64,000 bases of DNA, taken from Cellulosimicrobium sp. Marseille-Q4280. Its GTDB lineage: Bacteria > Actinomycetota > Actinomycetes > Actinomycetales > Cellulomonadaceae. Location of the stretch: contig NZ_CALPBY010000001.1 in the NCBI RefSeq assembly GCF_943181405.1, positions 1 to 64,000 on the forward strand. Direction: 5' to 3'. Under the pieces are notes generated by a model. It had not been told where the DNA came from and did no database searches. It saw nothing but the letters and a program-made list of their open reading frames with translations. The translations under genes were made by a program, and so were the position numbers. Below are positions 7,817-64,000 of the stretch, piece after piece; the stretch's first letter is position 1, and the number at the start of each line of letters is the position of its first letter.

Positions 7817-8862
7817 GCACCCACGACCCGGGCGGCATCGGGGCCGGTGGCGAGCACGGCGACGAGCACCTCGCCGCCTCCGGCCGCGCCGACTCCACCC
7901 GCCCCGACACGTACATGCCGGGCGCGGTCCTGGACGAGCCGGTCATCGTCGACGTCGAGTCCGTGCGACCCGAGCTGGCGGACCCCGAGCTCGTCGACGC
8001 GATGGTCGCGCCGGACCGCGCCGTCCAGGCGAAGATCGGCGAGCCGCTCCTGCAGATGGAGCACGTCACCGTCCAGTTCGGCGGCCTCGTCGCGCTCGAC
8101 GACGTGACGTTCGACATCCGGCGCGGGGAGATCCTCGGTCTCATCGGCCCGAACGGCGCGGGCAAGACGACGGCGTTCAACGCGATGACGGGCGTGTACC
8201 GGCCCACCAAGGGCCAGGTCGTGTTCGACGGCGCTCCCCTCGGCGCGCTCAAGCGGTACCAGATCACGCAGCGCGGCATCGCCCGGACGTTCCAGAACAT
8301 CCGGCTGTTCAACGAGATGACGGCGCTGGAGAACGTCGTGGTGGGCACGGACGCGCGGCACCGCACGTCGGTGCCGGGCGCGCTGTTCCGCTCACCGCGG
8401 CACCGCCGCGAGGAGCGTGACGCGATCGACCGCGGCATGGCGCTCCTCGAGTTCGTCGGGGTCGGCGGCCGGGCGACGGAGAAGGCGCGCAACCTCTCCT
8501 ACGGCGACCAGCGCCGTCTGGAGATCGCCCGCGCGCTCGCCACGGAGCCGAAGCTGCTGTGCCTCGACGAGCCCGCGGCGGGCTTCAACCCGGCGGAGAA
8601 GGAGGCCCTCATGGACCTCATCCGCCACATCCGCGACGACGGCTATACGGTGCTGCTCATCGAGCACGACATGCGCCTCGTCCGCGGTGTCACGGACCGG
8701 ATCGTCGTGCTCGAGTTCGGCCGGGTCATCGCGGACGGCACTCCCGACGAGGTGACGAGCGACCCGAAGGTCATCGCCGCCTACCTGGGGGTCCCGGACG
8801 AGGAGCTGGTCGGGGACGCCGCCACCACGGACGAAGGAGGCAGCGGCGATGCCACTGCTTGA
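7813..8862 (+). CDS. livG: Branched-chain amino acid ABC transporter ATPase LivG
   Basis: 349 residues. The ABC domain starts only at about residue 79 ([14 protein letters not shown]). Walker A (GPNGAGKT) is at 112-119, followed by the signature [15 protein letters not shown], Walker B CLDEPAAG and the switch His in LIEHDMRLV. LivG proteins are usually about 255-290 residues, so the 78-residue acidic N-terminal extension is unusual. The start is fixed by the ATGA overlap with livM, which supports the extension as real; no closer start with a good ribosome site is obvious. It hydrolyses ATP with LivF to drive uptake. It overlaps livF by 14 bp. Confidence 0.93.
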
Positions 8863-9568
8863 GCTGCAGGACGTGACCGTCGCCTACGGGCGCATCGAGG
8901 CGGTCCGGGGGATCTCCATCACGGTCGAGGAGGGCGAGCTCGTCACGCTCATCGGCGCGAACGGCGCCGGGAAGACCACGACGATGCGCGCGATCTCGGG
9001 CATCCGGCCGGTCGCGCGCGGGCGGATCATCTTCGACGGCAAGGACATCACGCGCATGAAGGCGCACCTGCGCGTGCTCGAGGGCATCGTCCAGGCGCCG
9101 GAGGGTCGGGGCATCTTCCCGGGCATGACGGTGATCGAGAACCTCGAGATGGGCGCGTACTCCCGCACCTTCGCCACCAAGGCCGAGCACGACGAGACCC
9201 TCGACCGGGTGTTCGAGCTGTTCCCGCGCCTCGCGGAGCGCAAGGACCAGGTGGGTGGCACGATGTCCGGCGGCGAGCAGCAGATGCTCGCCATCGGGCG
9301 CGCCCTCATGGCGCGCCCGCGGCTGATGCTCCTCGACGAGCCGTCGATGGGCCTCGCCCCGATGGTGATCCAGCAGATCTTCCGGATCATCTCGGAGATC
9401 AACGCCCTGGGCACGACCGTCCTCCTCGTGGAGCAGAACGCCCAGCAGGCGCTCTCGCGGTCCCACCGCGCGTACGTCCTGGAGACGGGTGAGGTCGTCC
9501 GCGCCGGCGGCGGCAAGGAGCTCCTCGCGGACTCGAGCATCAAGGAGGCGTACCTGGGCGTCGCCTGA
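8849..9568 (+). CDS. livF: Branched-chain amino acid ABC transporter ATPase LivF
   Basis: 239 residues, the normal LivF length. Walker A (GANGAGKT) is at 36-43, the signature MSGGEQQMLAIGRAL and Walker B LLDEPSMGLAP follow, and the switch His position carries the LivF-type LVEQNAQQAL (Gln instead of His), as is normal for this subunit. It starts inside the end of livG, preceded by GGAGGCAGC. It is the last gene of the operon and forms the ATPase dimer with LivG. No clear terminator follows; only 38 bp separate it from the next start. Confidence 0.95.
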   Translation: MPLLELQDVTVAYGRIEAVRGISITVEEGELVTLIGANGAGKTTTMRAISGIRPVARGRIIFDGKDITRMKAHLRVLEGIVQAPEGRGIFPGMTVIENLEMGAYSRTFATKAEHDETLDRVFELFPRLAERKDQVGGTMSGGEQQMLAIGRALMARPRLMLLDEPSMGLAPMVIQQIFRIISEINALGTTVLLVEQNAQQALSRSHRAYVLETGEVVRAGGGKELLADSSIKEAYLGVA

Positions 9569-9606
9569 CGTCCGCGAGCGACGGCGAGCGCGCCTACCAT
9601 CGTCTC

Positions 9607-11493
9607 GTGCCCCTGCGACGCCGCGCGGCCGCTGCCGACCGCCACACGTTCGAGCTCGTCGACGACGGGTTCGACGACGAGCCCGACCTGGACGGGCCGT
9701 CGTCCGCCGGGTCTGCGGGGCGCGTCCACTGGACAGGTGGGACCGGCCCCGGCGTCCGGGCGCACGACGACGTCGACGCAGGCGCGATCCTCGACGGTCT
9801 CGCCGGAGACGACGGCAGGCGCTTCGGCGACGGCACGCAGGGCGACGACGGCACGTTCGGCGACGGCCCGGACGGACACGGCCCGGACGGACACGGCCCG
9901 GACGGCGACGGCCCGGACGGTGAGGCCGCGGAGCCGACGCCCCGGTCGCCCCGGCGCCGCCGTGCGGTCGTGGGCACCGCAGCGGCCGTCGTGCTCGTGC
10001 TCGGCGGGATGACGGCGGTCGACGCGGTCACGCAGCACCTCCAGACGGCGCGACTGCGCGACGCGCCCGGGGGTCTCGCACCGATCGGCGACGCGCCGCG
10101 CGTCGCGTGGGAGCTCGACATCGAGCTCGCGGGTCAGCCGCTCGGTGTGATGCCGGGTGCGCTCGTCGTGAACGACGGGAACGACGTCGTCGGGTACGAC
10201 CTCGACACGGGCGAGGAGGCCTGGCGGACGACGTTCGACGGGCCGACGTCGTGCGGCACGCTCGCCCAGTGGTACTCCGCGGTCTCCGTGGACGTCGAGG
10301 AGTCGTCGACGTGCGTGCCGTCCTTCGACGTCGCGGTCTCCGTGGCGAGCCCGGCTGAGGACTGGGACCCGGTGCCCGTCGCGGTGCTCGCCGCTGACGG
10401 CACGATCGAGGCGGCCCGGGAGCTCGGCCCGCCCTCCGGGCCGGTCGACGGCGCAGGTCCTGGTGAGGAGGTCCGCTGGATCCGCCCGTCCGCGGGCCCC
10501 GACGGGACGCTGCTCTGGGTCGGCCGCATCGGTCCGGAGGCGGAGCAGCAGGGCGAGAGGGTGCCTGTCGACGAGTCCACCGGGTTCGTCCCGGTCTCCG
10601 GCGACCCGCCCGACGTCGCGCTCGCGCTCCAGGACGTGGCGAGCGGCGACCTCCGGTGGAGCGCGGCCGTCCCCGCCAGGATGCGTGACGAGGCGTCGTA
10701 CGAGTGCGCCCAGTGGGGTGCCTCGGAGGGCAGCGGCGAGGAGGTCGCCACGGTCGACCTCGACCAGGCGTGGGGCTTCGGCACCCACCGAGCGGTGCAC
10801 GTGCAGGGCTGCGGCGTCACGGCGTCGTTCACCGCCGACGGCGTGCGCACCGACGACCCGGCCGTCGTGGGTGACGTCACCTTCGCGCACGGCGACGGCT
10901 ACCTGCGGGACCCGTCCGGCGGCTCGGTGATGTACGGCGGCTCGGGCCTGTACGACGAGTCGGGAGATCCGCTGCGGTCGGCGCTCCTCGCGGCGGACGG
11001 GTCGGTCGCCTGGGAGGCGCCGGGCCTGCTCGTGCCGCCGCTCGCGACCGACGGCCGGTCGGAGCTGCGCTTCGTCAAGACGGGTCTGACGATCGCCGCG
11101 TTCGACGGGTCGGGCGCCGAGCTGTGGGAGCCGGACACCGTGGGCACGCCCGAGCAGGTCCTCGTCGCGTCGGCCCCCGCCGTCCTCGTGTCGGTGCGGG
11201 GCGCGCTCGCGGCCCTCGACCCCGCGACGGGACGGACCCGGTGGAGCGTCGAACCGTCAGCGCTCGGCGGGTCGGGCTTCTCGTCCGGCTCGGTGATGCA
11301 GGCGTTCACCGACGGCCGTTCCGCGATCCTCGTCCTGAGCACCGCTGCGCCGTCGGCGGCCCTCGTCGCGATCGACCTCGCCGACGGCCGGGTGCTGTGG
11401 ACCGAGGAGGGCTTGCCGGACGCGTGGTCGTACCTCAGCGTCGAGGGGCGCCTCGTGTCCGTCGGCGAGCGCTCGGTCGCACTGCTCCGCTGA
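9607..11493 (+). CDS. Membrane-anchored PQQ-like beta-propeller protein
   Basis: 628 residues from GTG. An acidic N-terminal cytoplasmic tail (1-115) contains four copies of a five-residue GPDG(H/D) repeat. One membrane segment lies at about 120-138 after RRRR. The extracytoplasmic part carries PQQ/PQQ-like WD repeat signatures such as DLDTGEEAWRT, ALDPATGRTRWS and DLADGRVLWTEEG, so it should form a beta-propeller. The function is unknown; such actinobacterial proteins have no shown enzymatic activity and may be scaffolds. It follows livF by 38 bp but probably is not part of that system. The stop lies inside a 15-bp tandem duplication. Confidence 0.8.
   Translation: MPLRRRAAAADRHTFELVDDGFDDEPDLDGPSSAGSAGRVHWTGGTGPGVRAHDDVDAGAILDGLAGDDGRRFGDGTQGDDGTFGDGPDGHGPDGHGPDGDGPDGEAAEPTPRSPRRRRAVVGTAAAVVLVLGGMTAVDAVTQHLQTARLRDAPGGLAPIGDAPRVAWELDIELAGQPLGVMPGALVVNDGNDVVGYDLDTGEEAWRTTFDGPTSCGTLAQWYSAVSVDVEESSTCVPSFDVAVSVASPAEDWDPVPVAVLAADGTIEAARELGPPSGPVDGAGPGEEVRWIRPSAGPDGTLLWVGRIGPEAEQQGERVPVDESTGFVPVSGDPPDVALALQDVASGDLRWSAAVPARMRDEASYECAQWGASEGSGEEVATVDLDQAWGFGTHRAVHVQGCGVTASFTADGVRTDDPAVVGDVTFAHGDGYLRDPSGGSVMYGGSGLYDESGDPLRSALLAADGSVAWEAPGLLVPPLATDGRSELRFVKTGLTIAAFDGSGAELWEPDTVGTPEQVLVASAPAVLVSVRGALAALDPATGRTRWSVEPSALGGSGFSSGSVMQAFTDGRSAILVLSTAAPSAALVAIDLADGRVLWTEEGLPDAWSYLSVEGRLVSVGERSVALLR
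9865..9924 (+). repeat. Four tandem 15-bp coding repeats
   Basis: The unit GGCCCGGACGGACAC is repeated four times (9865, 9880, 9895, 9910), with changes mainly in the last four bases of units three and four. It encodes Gly-Pro-Asp-Gly-His/Asp in the cytoplasmic tail. The unit length is a multiple of three, so copy-number change would keep the frame. Confidence 0.9.
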
Positions 11494-58263: not shown

Positions 58264-58621
58264 GAATCTCAGTTGCCCCTGGAATCCACCGGGGGATCCG
58301 GACGTCGGGCCCAGGGGAAGCCGGGCGTCCGGACCGACCGCCGGCCCGCACGCATCGCGGCGTGCACCGGCACGGCCCTCGCTGGCCCTGGACCTCCTCG
58401 CGGCTCGGGTACCTGCCCACCGCGCGGTGCGCCCCGCCCGTCCGACAACCTGATCACGCCTCCGACGTACCTCCAGCGCGGGAACGACCCCGCGTCCTCA
58501 GTCGTGCCCTCGCGGCACGGGCCCCGGCCCGCGACCGCTCGATCGAAAGACGTGGCACCGAACGCCGCGGCGCGCCGACGCGCCGGGTCGACTCGGCATG
58601 CCTCCGTCCGGAAGGAGAACC

Positions 58622-59773
58622 ATGTCCGCACCGACGACAGACGGTGAGTCCCCCACGAAGCCGCTGTCCCGACGCTCCCTGCTCGTCGGGGCCGGCGTCG
58701 TCGCCGCGAGCCCCGCGGCGGCGCTCGTGCTCGGCTCGGGAGGCAGCGTCGTCGCGGCCGCGCCCGCGGCCGCCGCAGGCTCGACCGCCGCGGCACCCGT
58801 CGCCGCCGCGGCGAGCGGCACCCGCAAGATCACGATGTACGCGGAGCGCATCGACGACCGGACCGTCGGCTACGGGCTCGAGCCGGGGAAGGCCACGGTG
58901 CCCGGCCCGATCCTCGAGATGTGGGAGGGCGAGACGCTCGAGATCACGCTGGTCAACACCACCGACCAGCGGCTGTCGATCCACCCCCACGGCGTGAACT
59001 ACGACGTCAACAGCGACGGGAGCCCCTTCAACGACTCGTTCAACGAGCCGGGGGAGACCCGCACGTACGTCTGGTCGACCGTGCCGATGCGCCGCGACCG
59101 CGGCATCTGGATGCCCGGGAGCGCCGGCTACTGGCACTACCACGACCACGCGTGGGGCGAGCACGGGACGCCGGGCATCGCCGCCGGGCTGTACGGCGCG
59201 CTCGTCGTGCGCCGGGTCGGGGACGTGCTGCCCGAGAAGCAGTTCACCGTCGTGTTCAACGACATGCTCATCAACAACAAGGCCGCTCCGGACACGCCGA
59301 TGTTCGAGGCGAACCTCGGGGAGCGCGTCGAGTTCATCTGCATCGGGCACGGCAACACGTTCCACACGTTCCACCTGCACGCGCACCGCTGGGCGAACAA
59401 CCGCACCGGTCTGCTGTCCGGGCGTGAGGACGTGACCCAGGTCGTGGACAACCGCGACCTCAACCCCGGCGACGCGTTCGGGTTCCAGGTCGTCGCCGGG
59501 CTGGGGGTCGGGGCCGGCGCGTGGATGTACCACTGCCACGTCCAGTTCCACGCCGACGGCGGGATGGCCGGCATCTTCCTCGTCCGCAACGCCGACGGCA
59601 GCATGCCGACCGGTGCCCAGGAGTCCATCGACCGCTTCCAGGCGCACGGCGGGCACGCGGCGTCGGGCACGTCCAGCGGGACGACGGCGACCACGGAGCC
59701 CGGGGCGGACGCCGCCCCCACGGACCACGGCGTGGCGGGCCTGCCGCCGCTGGCGGTGCACACCGACCACTGA
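58622..59773 (+). CDS. Tat-exported small laccase-type multicopper oxidase
   Basis: 383 residues from ATG with AAGGAGAA upstream. A Tat signal (SRRSLLVG near 16-23) and an Ala-rich hydrophobic segment export it. Two cupredoxin domains of the small-laccase kind carry all copper motifs: HPHG (121-124), WHYHDHAW (His172, 174, 176), HTFHLHAH (His248-255) and YHCHVQFHADGGM (Cys305 and flanking His/Met for type 1 copper). It oxidises phenolic or metal substrates with O2. A His/Asp/Thr-rich tail of about 50 residues follows. The next gene encodes a PQQ-type sugar dehydrogenase fusion 98 bp away, suggesting a joint redox role. Confidence 0.93.
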   Translation: MSAPTTDGESPTKPLSRRSLLVGAGVVAASPAAALVLGSGGSVVAAAPAAAAGSTAAAPVAAAASGTRKITMYAERIDDRTVGYGLEPGKATVPGPILEMWEGETLEITLVNTTDQRLSIHPHGVNYDVNSDGSPFNDSFNEPGETRTYVWSTVPMRRDRGIWMPGSAGYWHYHDHAWGEHGTPGIAAGLYGALVVRRVGDVLPEKQFTVVFNDMLINNKAAPDTPMFEANLGERVEFICIGHGNTFHTFHLHAHRWANNRTGLLSGREDVTQVVDNRDLNPGDAFGFQVVAGLGVGAGAWMYHCHVQFHADGGMAGIFLVRNADGSMPTGAQESIDRFQAHGGHAASGTSSGTTATTEPGADAAPTDHGVAGLPPLAVHTDH

Positions 59774-59871
59774 CCCGGTTCCCGCACCACCAGGAGCCGT
59801 ACCACCAGCCGTTCCACCCCGGCGCCCGGTCCCGTCCGGGTGCACCGCACCGATGACGAAGGAGTTGGAGA

Positions 59872-62800
59872 GTGCTATCCAGACGTGCAACGTCCCCCAC
59901 CACGAGAGGGCGCTCCCGACCGGGAGCGCTCCGCTCGGTCGCCGTGGGTCTGACGAGCGTCGCGCTCGTCGCGAGCGCGGCCGTGATCCCGGCGTCCGCC
60001 CAGTCCGGCCTGACCACGGGCACCACCCCGACGGCGGCGCAGCCCGCCGCCGTGAAGACCGCGACGAACGCAGCGCCCGTGCGCGTGCTCGTCTTCCACG
60101 GCGCCCCGGACGCGCAGGACGACCCGGTCGTCGACGCGACGCAGGCCCTCTCGCAGCTCGGGTCCGCGAACGGGTTCGAGGTCGAGGCGTCGTCCGACCC
60201 GGCGGTCTTCACCGAGGCCGCGCTGAGCGACTACCGCGGCGTCGTCATGCTGTCGGCCGAGGGCATCGAGCTGAGCGCCGCCCAGGAGGCGGCGCTCCAG
60301 GCCTACGTGAACGGCGGCGGCGGGTTCCTCGGCGTGCGTGACGCGGCGCGCGCCCAGGAGGCGTCGCAGTGGTTCACGGGCCTCGTCGGCGCGCGCATCG
60401 CCGGCGCCCAGCCCGACGCCGCGGACGTCGCCGAGGTCACCGCGACCGCGGAGAACCCGCCGAACGAGGACGCACCGAACCTCGTCGACGGCGACCCCGG
60501 CACGAAGTGGCTCGCGTTCGAGCCCACCGCGACGATCACCCTGCGGCTCGAGGAGCCGCTCGAGCTCGCGCGCTACACGCTCATCTCGGCCAACGACTCC
60601 GCGGGTCGCGACCCGCAGAACTGGACGCTGCAGGGCTCGACGGACGGCGAGACGTGGGTCGACGTCGACGAGCGCAGCGACGAGGACTTCCCGCAGCGCT
60701 TCCAGCCGCGCGACTTCGACGTCGAGAGCGACACCGCCTACGGGTGGTACCGGCTCGACATCACGCAGAACGCGGGCGAGGGGCTGACGCAGCTCGCCGA
60801 GATCTCGCTGTTCGACGACGAGTCGGTGAACCAGCCGGCGCCCGAGATCCCGGTCGAGACGCGCACGGTCGACCTCATCGACCGGCAGCACCCCGCGACC
60901 GCGGAGCTGCCGCTCACGTGGGAGCGCGACGACAAGTGGCTCGACTGGGCCGACAGCCCGGCCGGCGAGGTGCACACGGTCGCGCAGGTCGAGCCGGGCC
61001 CCGACGCCGGGCCGACGACGAACCCCTTCCACCCGGTGTCCTGGTGCCGCGACTACGACGGCGGCCGCTCCTTCTACACCGGCATGGGGGGCACGCCGGA
61101 GAGCTGGGCGGACGAGTCGTTCCGGCAGCACCTGCTCGGCGCGCTGCAGTGGACGACGGGCGTCGTGCGCGGCGACTGCCAGGCCACGATCGCGTCGAAC
61201 TACACGACCGAGCGCCTCTCGGCCCCGAACACCGCGGGCCAGCTCGACCAGAACGGTGAGCCGCACGGCCTGACGATCGCGCCCGACGGCACGGTCTTCT
61301 ACATCGGCCGCGGCGCGTGCCCGACCGGTCCGATCCCGTCGTGGTCCAACCCCGACGTGGGCCTGGGCTGCGGCACGATCCACCAGTGGGACCCGGAGAC
61401 GGGTGAGGTCGACCTGCTGACGACGCTCGAGGTCATGGGCAACCGCGGCAGCGGCGACGAGCTGGTGAAGAACGAGGAGGGCCTGCTCGGCATCACGCCG
61501 GACCCGAACTTCGCCGAGAACCACCACCTCTACGTCTTCTGGATGCCGCACGAGTCGATCGACACCGAGCGCCGCGTCGGCATGCGGACCGTCTCGCGGT
61601 TCACGTACGACCCCGCGGGGCCGAGCATCGACCAGAGCACGCGCGTCGACCTGCTCGAGTGGGAGACGCAGATCCACAGCTGCTGCCACGCGGGCGGCGG
61701 CATGGCGTTCGACGACGACGGGAACCTCTACATCGGCTCGGGCGACAACAACTCGTCCGGCGGCTCGAACGGCTACTCCGGCAACAACTGGACGCAGGAG
61801 TACGCCGGGATCAGCTTCCAGGACGCGCGCCGCACGTCGGGCAACACGAACGACCTCAACGGCAAGATCCTGCGGATCCACCCCGAGGCCGACGGCACGT
61901 ACACCATCCCAGACGACAACCTCTTCCCGGTGGGCGAGTACCCCGCCGACAAGACGCGCCCCGAGATCTACGTCATGGGCGTGCGCAACATCTCGCGCCT
62001 GCAGATCGACCCCGATACCGACTGGCTGACCGCCGCGTGGGTGGGGCCGGACGCCGGCATGCCGGACCCCGAGCTCGGCCCGGCCAAGTACGAGACGGCG
62101 ACGATCATCACGTCCGCCGGCAACCAGGGCTGGCCGTACTGCATGGGCAACCGCCAGCCGTACCGTGACCGGAGCAACGAGGACGCGAGCGTCCTCACCG
62201 GCTGGTACGACTGCGACAACCCGAAGAACACGTCGCCGCGCAACACCGGTCTGGTCGACATCCCGCCGGTGCGCGACAACATGATCTGGTACTCGCCGAG
62301 CGGCGGCGGCCCGGTCTTCCCGATCGGCGAGGACGGCATCCCGTCCTACGAGGACGACGAGGCCACCTACACGATCCCGTGGCTCCGCGGTGGCGGCCAG
62401 GCCGTCATGTCCGGCCCGACGTACCGCACGTCGCAGGTCGACCCCGAGTCGGACGTCGCCTGGCCGTCGTACTGGGAGGGCAAGTGGTTCCTCGGTGACC
62501 AGTCGAACTCGAACAACCGCACCGCGGTGACGGTCGACCCGGACGCCGTGGAGTCGCAGGGCGCCCCGGCGTTCATGGAGGACCTGCGCCAGATCCTCCC
62601 GGGCGGTCGTGGTGACGACCTGGTGCAGAGCTGGATGGACGCGAAGTTCGGTCCCGACGGCGCGCTGTACCTGCTCGACTACGCGGGCGGCTTCTTCAGC
62701 CTCGACCCGAACCAGAAGCTCGTGCGCGTCACGTACGACGGCGGGGCACCCACCCCGCTGCCGACCGCCACCGCGGCGAGCATCCAGGGCGACCCGCTGA

Positions 62801-63867
62801 CGGTGGCCTTCACGGGCGCCCGCTCCGGCGGCGTGTCCTACCAGTGGGACTTCGGCGACGGCTCGACGTCGACCAAGGCGAACCCGCGGCACACCTACCC
62901 GCGGGTGGGCGAGTACGAGGCGACGCTGACCGTCACGTACGCCGACGGCACCACGGAGACGGTCACGGCCGACGCGAGCACGACGTGCACGCTGCCGGAC
63001 GACCGCGAGACCGTCTTCTTCGGCGAGTTCGACTCCGGCGTCGCCAACGACGACCTGGGCGGCTGCACCATCGCCGACCTGTTCCAGGACGAGAAGGAGT
63101 GGGACACGCACCAGAAGTTCCTGCGCCACGTGAAGGCCGTCGCGAAGAGCCTCTTCGACGACAGCCGCATCACGGGCTCGGAGCGCAACGCTCTGGTGAA
63201 CGCGGCCGCGCGGTCGCAGATCGGCGTCGACCCGGGCGGGTACCGGACGATCTTCGACGGCACCCAGGAGTCGCTGTTCGACTGGAAGCAGGCGCCTGGC
63301 GGCAGGTTCGTGCTGCAGCCCGACGGGTCGCTCCGCTCGGAAGGCGGCCTGGGGATGCTCTGGTACGCGGCCGAGGAGCTCGGGGACTTCTCCGTGAAGC
63401 TCCTGTACCGCGACATCTCGGAGGGGAACACCTTCGCGAACAGCGGTGTCTTCACCCGGTTCCCGAACCCTGACGCCCCCGGCGACGTCGAGTGCGCCGA
63501 GGGTCAGTCCCCGGCGTGGGTCGCGATCTCGTGCGGTCACGAGATCCAGATCTACGACGGCACGACGGGCGAGCCGCAGAAGACCGGCTCGGTCTACAAC
63601 TTCGACCCGGTCGGTCTCGACACCCCGGGGCTGAAGCCGAAGGGCGAGTGGAACGAGTACGAGATCCGGGTGGTCGGCCAGCAGTACACGATCATCCGCA
63701 ACGGCGAGGTCATCAACGAGTTCGAGAACTCGCCCGGCCAGGAGTCGTCGCGCGCGGGCGACCCGCCGACCGACCTGCGTCAGTTCGAGCGCGGGTTCAT
63801 CGGGCTGCAGAACCACGGGAACGCGGACCTCATCGAGTTCCGTGACGTCCGGGTGGCCGACCTGTAG
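59872..63867 (+). CDS. Secreted ThuA/discoidin/PQQ-dehydrogenase/PKD/DUF1080 multidomain protein
   Basis: 1331 residues from GTG, with GAAGGAG upstream. After a signal peptide (to about 45, cleavage near SAQSG) the domains are: ThuA-like part one (about 63-180, VLVFHGAPDAQ), discoidin/F5-8 type C (about 186-318), ThuA-like part two (about 329-437, HPVSWCRDYDGGRSFYTGMG), a glucose/sorbosone-dehydrogenase-type PQQ propeller (about 446-957, GLLGITPDPNF, HAGGGMAFDDDGNLYIGSGD, NDLNGKILRIHP), a PKD domain (about 958-1045, WDFGDGS) and a DUF1080/3-keto-glycoside hydrolase-like lectin fold (about 1123-1331, TIFDGTQESLFDW). The ThuA fold is thus split by the discoidin insert. It probably acts outside the cell on carbohydrate: oxidation by the propeller and keto-sugar cleavage by DUF1080 (inference). 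Confidence 0.88.
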   Translation: MLSRRATSPTTRGRSRPGALRSVAVGLTSVALVASAAVIPASAQSGLTTGTTPTAAQPAAVKTATNAAPVRVLVFHGAPDAQDDPVVDATQALSQLGSANGFEVEASSDPAVFTEAALSDYRGVVMLSAEGIELSAAQEAALQAYVNGGGGFLGVRDAARAQEASQWFTGLVGARIAGAQPDAADVAEVTATAENPPNEDAPNLVDGDPGTKWLAFEPTATITLRLEEPLELARYTLISANDSAGRDPQNWTLQGSTDGETWVDVDERSDEDFPQRFQPRDFDVESDTAYGWYRLDITQNAGEGLTQLAEISLFDDESVNQPAPEIPVETRTVDLIDRQHPATAELPLTWERDDKWLDWADSPAGEVHTVAQVEPGPDAGPTTNPFHPVSWCRDYDGGRSFYTGMGGTPESWADESFRQHLLGALQWTTGVVRGDCQATIASNYTTERLSAPNTAGQLDQNGEPHGLTIAPDGTVFYIGRGACPTGPIPSWSNPDVGLGCGTIHQWDPETGEVDLLTTLEVMGNRGSGDELVKNEEGLLGITPDPNFAENHHLYVFWMPHESIDTERRVGMRTVSRFTYDPAGPSIDQSTRVDLLEWETQIHSCCHAGGGMAFDDDGNLYIGSGDNNSSGGSNGYSGNNWTQEYAGISFQDARRTSGNTNDLNGKILRIHPEADGTYTIPDDNLFPVGEYPADKTRPEIYVMGVRNISRLQIDPDTDWLTAAWVGPDAGMPDPELGPAKYETATIITSAGNQGWPYCMGNRQPYRDRSNEDASVLTGWYDCDNPKNTSPRNTGLVDIPPVRDNMIWYSPSGGGPVFPIGEDGIPSYEDDEATYTIPWLRGGGQAVMSGPTYRTSQVDPESDVAWPSYWEGKWFLGDQSNSNNRTAVTVDPDAVESQGAPAFMEDLRQILPGGRGDDLVQSWMDAKFGPDGALYLLDYAGGFFSLDPNQKLVRVTYDGGAPTPLPTATAASIQGDPLTVAFTGARSGGVSYQWDFGDGSTSTKANPRHTYPRVGEYEATLTVTYADGTTETVTADASTTCTLPDDRETVFFGEFDSGVANDDLGGCTIADLFQDEKEWDTHQKFLRHVKAVAKSLFDDSRITGSERNALVNAAARSQIGVDPGGYRTIFDGTQESLFDWKQAPGGRFVLQPDGSLRSEGGLGMLWYAAEELGDFSVKLLYRDISEGNTFANSGVFTRFPNPDAPGDVECAEGQSPAWVAISCGHEIQIYDGTTGEPQKTGSVYNFDPVGLDTPGLKPKGEWNEYEIRVVGQQYTIIRNGEVINEFENSPGQESSRAGDPPTDLRQFERGFIGLQNHGNADLIEFRDVRVADL

Positions 63868-63901
63868 CACCCACCGGGCCGCCCGCGCGGCGCAGCGGCT
63901 T

Positions 63902-63920
63902 CCCGGGGCGCCGCCCCGGG
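63902..63920 (+). terminator. Short GC hairpin after the ThuA/PQQ fusion gene
   Basis: CCCGGGG (63902-63908) pairs with CCCCGGG (63914-63920) around a five-base loop, followed by TTCTT. It lies 35 bp past the stop and may reduce read-through to the next gene. Confidence 0.55.
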
Positions 63921-63974
63921 GTTCTTCCGTACGACCGACCTGAACCACCGCACATCGACGAGGAGTGCACCCCC

Positions 63975-64000
63975 ATGGAACGACACAGCGCGAGAGCGCG
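63975..64000 (+). CDS. Start of a further gene, cut by the window end
   Basis: ATG (MERHSARA...) with AGGAG nine bases upstream, 107 bp after the fusion gene and in the same direction. Only eight codons are visible. The basic N-terminus would suit a secreted or Tat protein; nothing more can be said. Confidence 0.5.

Follow-up and report, generated by a model that had tools for sequence, protein, structure and literature searches.

A small laccase, a ThuA-propeller protein and a cupredoxin protein are encoded by linked genes in actinomycetes and may form a secreted oxidative sugar system

A 64,000-nucleotide stretch of the Cellulosimicrobium sp. Marseille-Q4280 genome (positions 1 to 64,000 of contig NZ_CALPBY010000001.1; hereafter the window) ends with three genes in a row on the plus strand. 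They encode a two-domain (small) laccase, a secreted fusion protein in which a sugar dehydrogenase-type propeller is joined to ThuA and DUF1080 domains, and a protein with a cupredoxin domain. Genes for these three proteins are linked in related actinomycetes and stay linked through rearrangement, and the linked propellers all fall in a single clade (84/84, support 1.0). We consider it likely that the three proteins function together. The fuller proposal, a secreted three-protein system in which electrons from sugar would pass from the propeller to the cupredoxin, the laccase and O2 and in which DUF1080 would carry out cleavage, has in our view an even chance of being right as a whole. A literature search, which was confined to the top-ranked papers where many matched and left most subscription journals outside its scope, returned no description of the gene set.

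The propeller domain was used to scan one genome per species, and the best 80 of 304 related stretches, which were 72-91% identical, were taken for analysis. These loci came from Cellulosimicrobium, Isoptericola, Oerskovia, Georgenia, Promicromonospora, Amycolatopsis, Prauserella, Micromonospora, Actinoplanes, Streptomyces and others, and included three metagenome-assembled genomes (L059, L069 and L118). A search for the partners by tblastn (E up to 1e-4) identified a laccase in 79 loci, a cupredoxin in 79 and both in 78. The laccase was at most 4.2 kb and the cupredoxin at most 5.4 kb from the propeller, with the trio contained inside 6 kb. Four gene orders were found among the 78 complete loci: laccase-fusion-cupredoxin in 63, cupredoxin upstream on the other strand in 10, fusion-cupredoxin-laccase in three and cupredoxin-laccase-fusion in two. 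Linkage was still kept in L088 and L105, where the laccase is merely about 43% identical; the L088 laccase is still a two-domain multicopper oxidase by Pfam. When the predicted proteins of the 80 loci were clustered, the fusion was present in 80 loci, the cupredoxin protein in 78 and the laccase in 62. The difference between 62 laccases by clustering and 79 by tblastn reflects frame picking or clustering and not a splitting off of divergent laccases, those of L088 and L105 being members of the laccase cluster. No further cluster exceeded 27 of the 80 loci, and a conserved fourth gene was rejected on this ground.

The 80 loci were the top matches to one query, and additional genome samples that were not picked by the query were therefore examined. 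In a family sample of 121 genomes, scored at E <1e-100 for the laccase, at least 79% identity for the propeller orthologue and E <1e-40 for the cupredoxin, we found the laccase in 30 genomes, the propeller in 27 and the cupredoxin in 27, and all three adjoined (within 10 kb) in the 27. Weaker matches were left uncounted; they involved 21 more genomes for the laccase, 24 more for the propeller (39-46% identity among the matches listed) and one for the cupredoxin. The cupredoxin survey was made in this family sample, and the counts for the other two samples cover laccase and propeller. A class sample of 296 genomes (laccase E up to 1e-50, propeller E up to 1e-120) contained 42 laccases, 41 propellers and 41 genomes with both, the matches being separated by 1.3-2.5 kb. 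The third sample comprised 199 genomes of genus g54 (laccase E up to 1e-60), which is probably Streptomyces, judging from the propeller of Streptomyces fungicidicus, 93-94% identical to its closest members. Laccase was present in 125 of these genomes, propeller in 121 and both in 118, all on opposite strands with gaps of 1.2-1.5 kb. The original prediction, made from the window sequence, had named a laccase linkage limited to close relatives as an outcome that would speak against it; such confinement is rejected by the counts from the best 80 loci and from the class, family and g54 samples. Paralogues were likewise rejected as members of the system, this genome having six propeller matches, one laccase and one cupredoxin.

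The fusion gene (59872-63867, plus strand) has a GTG start, encodes 1331 aa and lies 98 bases after the laccase gene. ThuA occupies two stretches, 60064-60417 (about residues 65-182, a limit set by eye) and 60850-61155 (residues 327-428), with a discoidin/F5_8C domain between them at 60436-60801 (residues 189-310). The best stretch of the split ThuA match (PF06283) covers profile positions 111-209 and corresponds to residues 327-428. The chain continues with the GSDH-type propeller at 61192-62736 (residues 441-955, from Pfam and alignments), a PKD domain at 62761-62973 (residues 964-1034), a helical 78-aa module at 62992-63225 (residues 1041-1118) and the DUF1080 domain (PF06439) at 63238-63855 (residues 1123-1328). 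Pfam scores were 172 bits for ThuA, 40 for F5/8 type C, 72 for GSDH, 59 for PKD_4 and 107 for DUF1080/3keto-disac_hyd, all over the cut-offs. Because the domain scores exceed the cut-offs and the propeller is well conserved across the 80 loci (the 72-91% identity given above), the locus is beyond chance. Open reading frames and Pfam thus bear out the predicted Tat-type (twin-arginine translocation) small laccase followed 98 bp later by a 1331-residue secreted protein on the same strand, as well as the further gene, which starts at 63976 and encodes the 823-aa cupredoxin protein. The five domains predicted on the fusion chain were all recovered, with the correction that discoidin sits inside ThuA and not after it.

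The closest named relatives, among the matches listed, are Cellulosimicrobium (89-91% identity in the propeller). Across the best 80 loci, propeller, PKD, DUF1080 and ThuA matches were present in 80/80 and discoidin in 76/80. The discoidin domain is related to modules of the GH92 mannosidase 7nsn. This genome has the 78-aa module at two places only, once in the fusion and once as the C-terminal part of the cupredoxin protein, and in neither protein did the best stretch of a Pfam family fall on it.

A short form of the locus was found in genus g54, where the propeller protein consists of ThuA and propeller. On plasmid p1 of S. fungicidicus the order is a LacI regulator, the laccase and then, on the opposite strand, a ThuA-GSDH protein (809 aa) and a cupredoxin-Ig-module-DUF1080 protein (730 aa), the latter annotated as a family 16 glycoside hydrolase. 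ThuA of S. fungicidicus forms a single stretch, and the laccase is a near full-length match to 5lhl and 3cg8 in the PDB; we take 3cg8 to be the Streptomyces coelicolor enzyme. A cupredoxin match followed the short-form propeller in 7/7 loci examined (L210-L216), and in L230 and L231 cupredoxin and DUF1080 were on a single frame. The long form thus has DUF1080 on its propeller protein, and the short form has it on its cupredoxin protein. The long form is also present in some named Streptomyces (e.g. L101 and L108). From these data we conclude that the core is laccase, ThuA-propeller and cupredoxin, while discoidin, PKD and the placement of DUF1080 vary. Oxidation and cleavage on one chain was consequently rejected as the defining trait, the short-form propeller protein being without DUF1080; this part of the original prediction fails for the short form and could apply to the long form, which does carry a full-length DUF1080. 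Its broader view of one secreted system is supported, with PKD and discoidin, which it had assigned to polymer attachment, falling outside the core.

Laccase and cupredoxin both retain their copper ligands. The laccase gene (58598-59773, plus strand; 391 aa), which was identified by open reading frame listing, Pfam and PDB profile matching, has an alternative in-frame ATG at 58622, the start used in the original prediction. Cu-oxidase_2 (PF07731, 66 bits) and Cu-oxidase_3 (PF07732, 49 bits) are both over the cut-off. The TAT signal scored under it (15.8 vs 22.7 bits), and the twin-arginine (RR) motif is readable in the sequence. Long matches to solved two-domain laccases were obtained (3t9w, E 5.8e-126). 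Residues H129, H131, H182, H184, H256, H259, H261, H263, H312, C313, H314, H318 and M323, presumably the type 1 and type 2/type 3 copper ligands, were kept in 78/78 or 79/79 aligned loci. In domain make-up, copper ligands and Tat-type signal the enzyme resembles SLAC, Ssl1 and their relatives.

The first 25 bases of the cupredoxin gene lie within the window (63976-64000, plus strand), the whole gene spanning contig positions 63976-66447 (L007:6976-9447). In its 823-aa product, an apparent signal peptide and a cupredoxin domain near the N-terminus (about residues 56-168) are followed by immunoglobulin (Ig)-like repeats and, at the C-terminus, the 78-aa module. The type-1 copper ligands His105, Cys151, His156 and Met159 were invariant in 79/79 loci having the protein, and in 35/35 sequences of a smaller alignment made from 35 of 78 near-full-length proteins.

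The propeller has the GSDH fold (PF07995) and retains several catalytic-type residues. Alignment to 1c9u identified His606, directly preceded by Cys604-Cys605, and the pair Arg705-Asn706. A Gly-Pro pair is at 736-737, and the base-type His, Arg-Asn and Gly-Pro positions were invariant in 84/84 linked and 9/9 other homologues. We take the first two to match the base His144 and the active-site pair Arg228-Asn229 of soluble glucose dehydrogenase (sGDH). Unlike sGDH and Asd/YliI, also members of PF07995, the linked propellers have the Cys-Cys before the His, three extra His residues invariant in the linked clade (His465, His504 and His602), a ThuA fusion, and cupredoxin and laccase neighbors.

We propose that the ThuA-propeller protein would oxidize a carbohydrate, to which it is perhaps held by discoidin and PKD, and that the electrons would pass singly to the type-1 copper of the neighboring cupredoxin. 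The two-domain laccase would then re-oxidize the cupredoxin and reduce O2 to water. Cleavage of the oxidized, probably 3-keto, sugar would fall to DUF1080, which belongs to the propeller protein in the window and to the cupredoxin protein in short-form loci. The main independent reason to suppose that the propeller hands on single electrons comes from fusions elsewhere: the haloarchaeon Halocatena salina has a plastocyanin-GSDH fusion and Runella slithyformis (Bacteroidota) a GSDH-PKD-cytochrome c-CBM6 protein. As in the window, the propeller is tied to a one-electron carrier in both; in contrast to the window, the carrier is on the propeller's own chain and no laccase is annotated in about 13 kb of either locus. 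The original prediction had electrons reach the laccase through a mediator. The most likely mediator between propeller and laccase is the type-1-copper cupredoxin protein rather than a diffusible compound; the cupredoxin is linked in 27/27 propeller-bearing genomes of the family sample and in 79/80 loci.

The cleavage step was considered from the DUF1080 domain and from gene context. The domain match is full length (PF06439, 106.7 bits, profile 1-186 of 187), and Glu1224, Gln1226, Asp1229, Trp1260, Asn1261 and His1315 are among the residues invariant in the aligned loci. EIQI-D, WN and GxIGLQ stretches are common to this domain and its best solved match, 3imm, which is named only as a putative secreted glycosylhydrolase. 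In the portion of PMC9007349 available to us, BT2157 is a 3-ketotrehalose hydrolase and THTE_1561 an endo-xanthanase/lichenase, and a DUF1080 3'-ketolactose hydrolase, CCNA_01705, is proposed. The fusion protein shares PF06439 with these DUF1080 hydrolases, its own match being over the cut-off across the profile; here the domain is fused to a propeller or a cupredoxin. In the ten loci with the cupredoxin on the other strand, a Gfo/Idh/MocA cluster was found in seven, a xylose-isomerase-like TIM barrel cluster in seven and both in six, and all ten had a ROK-family cluster (families assigned by Pfam on the L108 members). The same genes did not recur around window-type loci in the clustering of predicted proteins from the 80 loci. 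As excerpted, PMC10628242 describes an Agrobacterium 3-keto-glycoside operon that encodes GlycDH, a Gfo oxidoreductase and a pair of proteins of the sugar phosphate isomerase type; one member of this pair has a TIM-barrel fold and cleaves 3-keto glycosides. The logic of oxidation followed by cleavage is common to that operon and our proposal, as are the Gfo and TIM-barrel genes, each type being found next to the trio in seven loci; unlike the trio, the operon uses a different oxidizing enzyme, and the excerpt mentions neither laccase nor cupredoxin. Gene context thus favors a 3-keto route, circumstantially, and cleavage of a 3-keto sugar by DUF1080 is a tentative assignment to which we give less than an even chance.

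Several observations weigh against the proposed system. By tblastn among the best 80 loci, L097 was without a laccase and L119 without a cupredoxin, and the L046 laccase match was spread over more than one frame. A laccase without a propeller occurred in 7/125 genomes in g54, 3/30 in the family and 1/42 in the class (G136), and a propeller without a laccase in 3/121 in g54. Fisher values for the linkage are tiny but inflated, since related genomes were counted as independent. Eight of the exceptional loci were inspected in their predicted frames only. In these frames no propeller adjoined the laccase in G523, G561 and G577 (g54) or in G043 (family), and no laccase was present in 12 kb in G574. 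The contig start of G136 carries a cupredoxin next to two laccases, and this exception perhaps reflects an assembly gap; the G484 propeller is at a contig end, and in G602 a neighboring frame is laccase-like, with two short matches. For the 823-aa protein, the Pfam search gave no cupredoxin family match, and the PDB profile matches were modest (auracyanin A, E 7.6e-5; plastocyanin, 2.7e-4). The propeller cofactor is a further difficulty. Lys377, Arg406 and Arg408 are presumably the PQQ (pyrroloquinoline quinone)-holding residues of sGDH; at these positions, mapped only via Escherichia coli YliI, the linked propellers have S/C/Y/T for the Lys, mostly S for the first Arg and M in 84/84 for the second, whereas sGDH and Asd/YliI have Lys/Arg/Arg. 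Just 4/41 propeller holders of the class sample had a PqqC match, and this genome is among the 37 that had none; own PQQ synthesis is not strictly needed, as uptake is possible. Finally, HHIP, which is not known to be an enzyme, has the same fold as the propeller. The replaced residues and scarce pqqC led us to reject confident PQQ dependence: the predicted PQQ sugar dehydrogenase stands as to fold, base His and Arg-Asn pair, and PQQ itself is a possible cofactor whose chances we put somewhat below even.

Three other explanations of the linkage were weighed. In a mediator version akin to the original prediction, the laccase might turn phenols or lignin fragments into radicals and quinones that a propeller dehydrogenase reduces while oxidizing sugar, with the cupredoxin as an accessory. 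Two-domain laccases do oxidize phenols, and lignin degradation has been tested with a laccase-negative S. ipomoeae, as reported in the excerpted text of PMC5675413. However, the cupredoxin is linked as tightly as the laccase, and in short-form loci it is part of the chain that carries DUF1080. For these two reasons the cupredoxin seems non-optional. A recent study moreover doubts, in the part of PMC13151041 consulted, that lignin is oxidized efficiently in vivo by an oxidase that likewise has two domains but belongs to a different superfamily. We regard this phenol-based explanation as unlikely. Less probable still is a non-redox propeller, an HHIP-like glycan binder in a wall- or polymer-bound copper assembly, where the cupredoxin would serve as a copper store or copper donor to the laccase. 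The shared HHIP fold is compatible with such a role, but the base-type His, Arg-Asn and Gly-Pro are invariant in all linked and other homologues aligned, homologues are fused to plastocyanin or cytochrome c, and DUF1080 is kept through reshuffling.

Many of the sampled genomes are related, and in the tested set the linkage arose once, as would be expected if the trio were a passive neighborhood, i.e. a co-inherited set of unrelated secreted proteins. Such a set is very unlikely, as the linkage outlasts four gene orders and the move of DUF1080 between genes, is kept at about 43% laccase identity, and is not accompanied by any other cluster in more than 27/80 loci.

The proposed electron transfer from propeller via cupredoxin to laccase bears on enzymes that have been structurally solved and are used in biotechnology. 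The native-host function of bacterial laccases is described as mostly unclear (PMC5675413) and the roles of two-domain oxidases as poorly understood (PMC13151041), in the sections of these papers that we consulted. Partner genes of SLAC-type laccases are not discussed in the literature excerpts consulted, and small laccases are mentioned without such partners in those of PMC7036934 and PMC12705666; here the propeller protein and cupredoxin adjoin. A fixed pair of partner genes provides a concrete functional hypothesis for small laccases, natural electron donor included. If true, it would add an O2-driven, copper-based route to bacterial extracellular sugar oxidation and would give a context to ThuA-propeller proteins. 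A more far-reaching version, in which linked small laccases are dedicated terminal oxidases and not primarily phenol oxidases, the propeller oxidizes sugars and reduces the cupredoxin without classically bound PQQ but with another cofactor (perhaps a metal site formed around the clade-specific His465, His504 and His602), and O2 drives extracellular glycan cleavage, is speculative and improbable as a combined claim.

Additional genes were noted near trio loci. One cluster, present in 27/80 loci (L059, L061, L070, L071, L074, L082 and others), is formed by a protein of about 337 aa that looks secreted and has no Pfam match, and its L082 member (L082:14166-15179) begins directly after the cupredoxin gene; it is a possible fourth component in a subset of loci. 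A second GSDH-PKD-CBM6 protein is encoded near the trio at L108:14851-17325, with its cluster in 8/80 loci. In G602, a ThuA-discoidin start lies past the laccase-like frame of the short-form locus, at the contig end (L231:5077-6888), and this g54 genome may have the two forms next to each other. A HipA-family gene is located a few genes downstream of the window trio (L007:13220-14341). The Halocatena plastocyanin-GSDH fusion (L218:5473-7368) adjoins ABC transporter, sugar phosphate isomerase/epimerase and Gfo/Idh/MocA genes.

Other DUF1080 proteins were also observed. This genome encodes two similar large PA14-DUF7133-CBM35-DUF1080 proteins (L008:6364-9846 and L009:8356-11757), the L008 gene being flanked by a LacI regulator on one side and a member of the UxaC family on the other. 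At L010:3808-6186 and 8009-9751, a 580-aa DUF1080 protein and a molybdopterin oxidoreductase are encoded about 2 kb apart on the same strand. Three large arabinan-type enzymes are encoded in a row at L011:5109-16575, namely an alpha-L-arabinofuranosidase with a DUF1080-like stretch, a GH127 and a GH43 enzyme.

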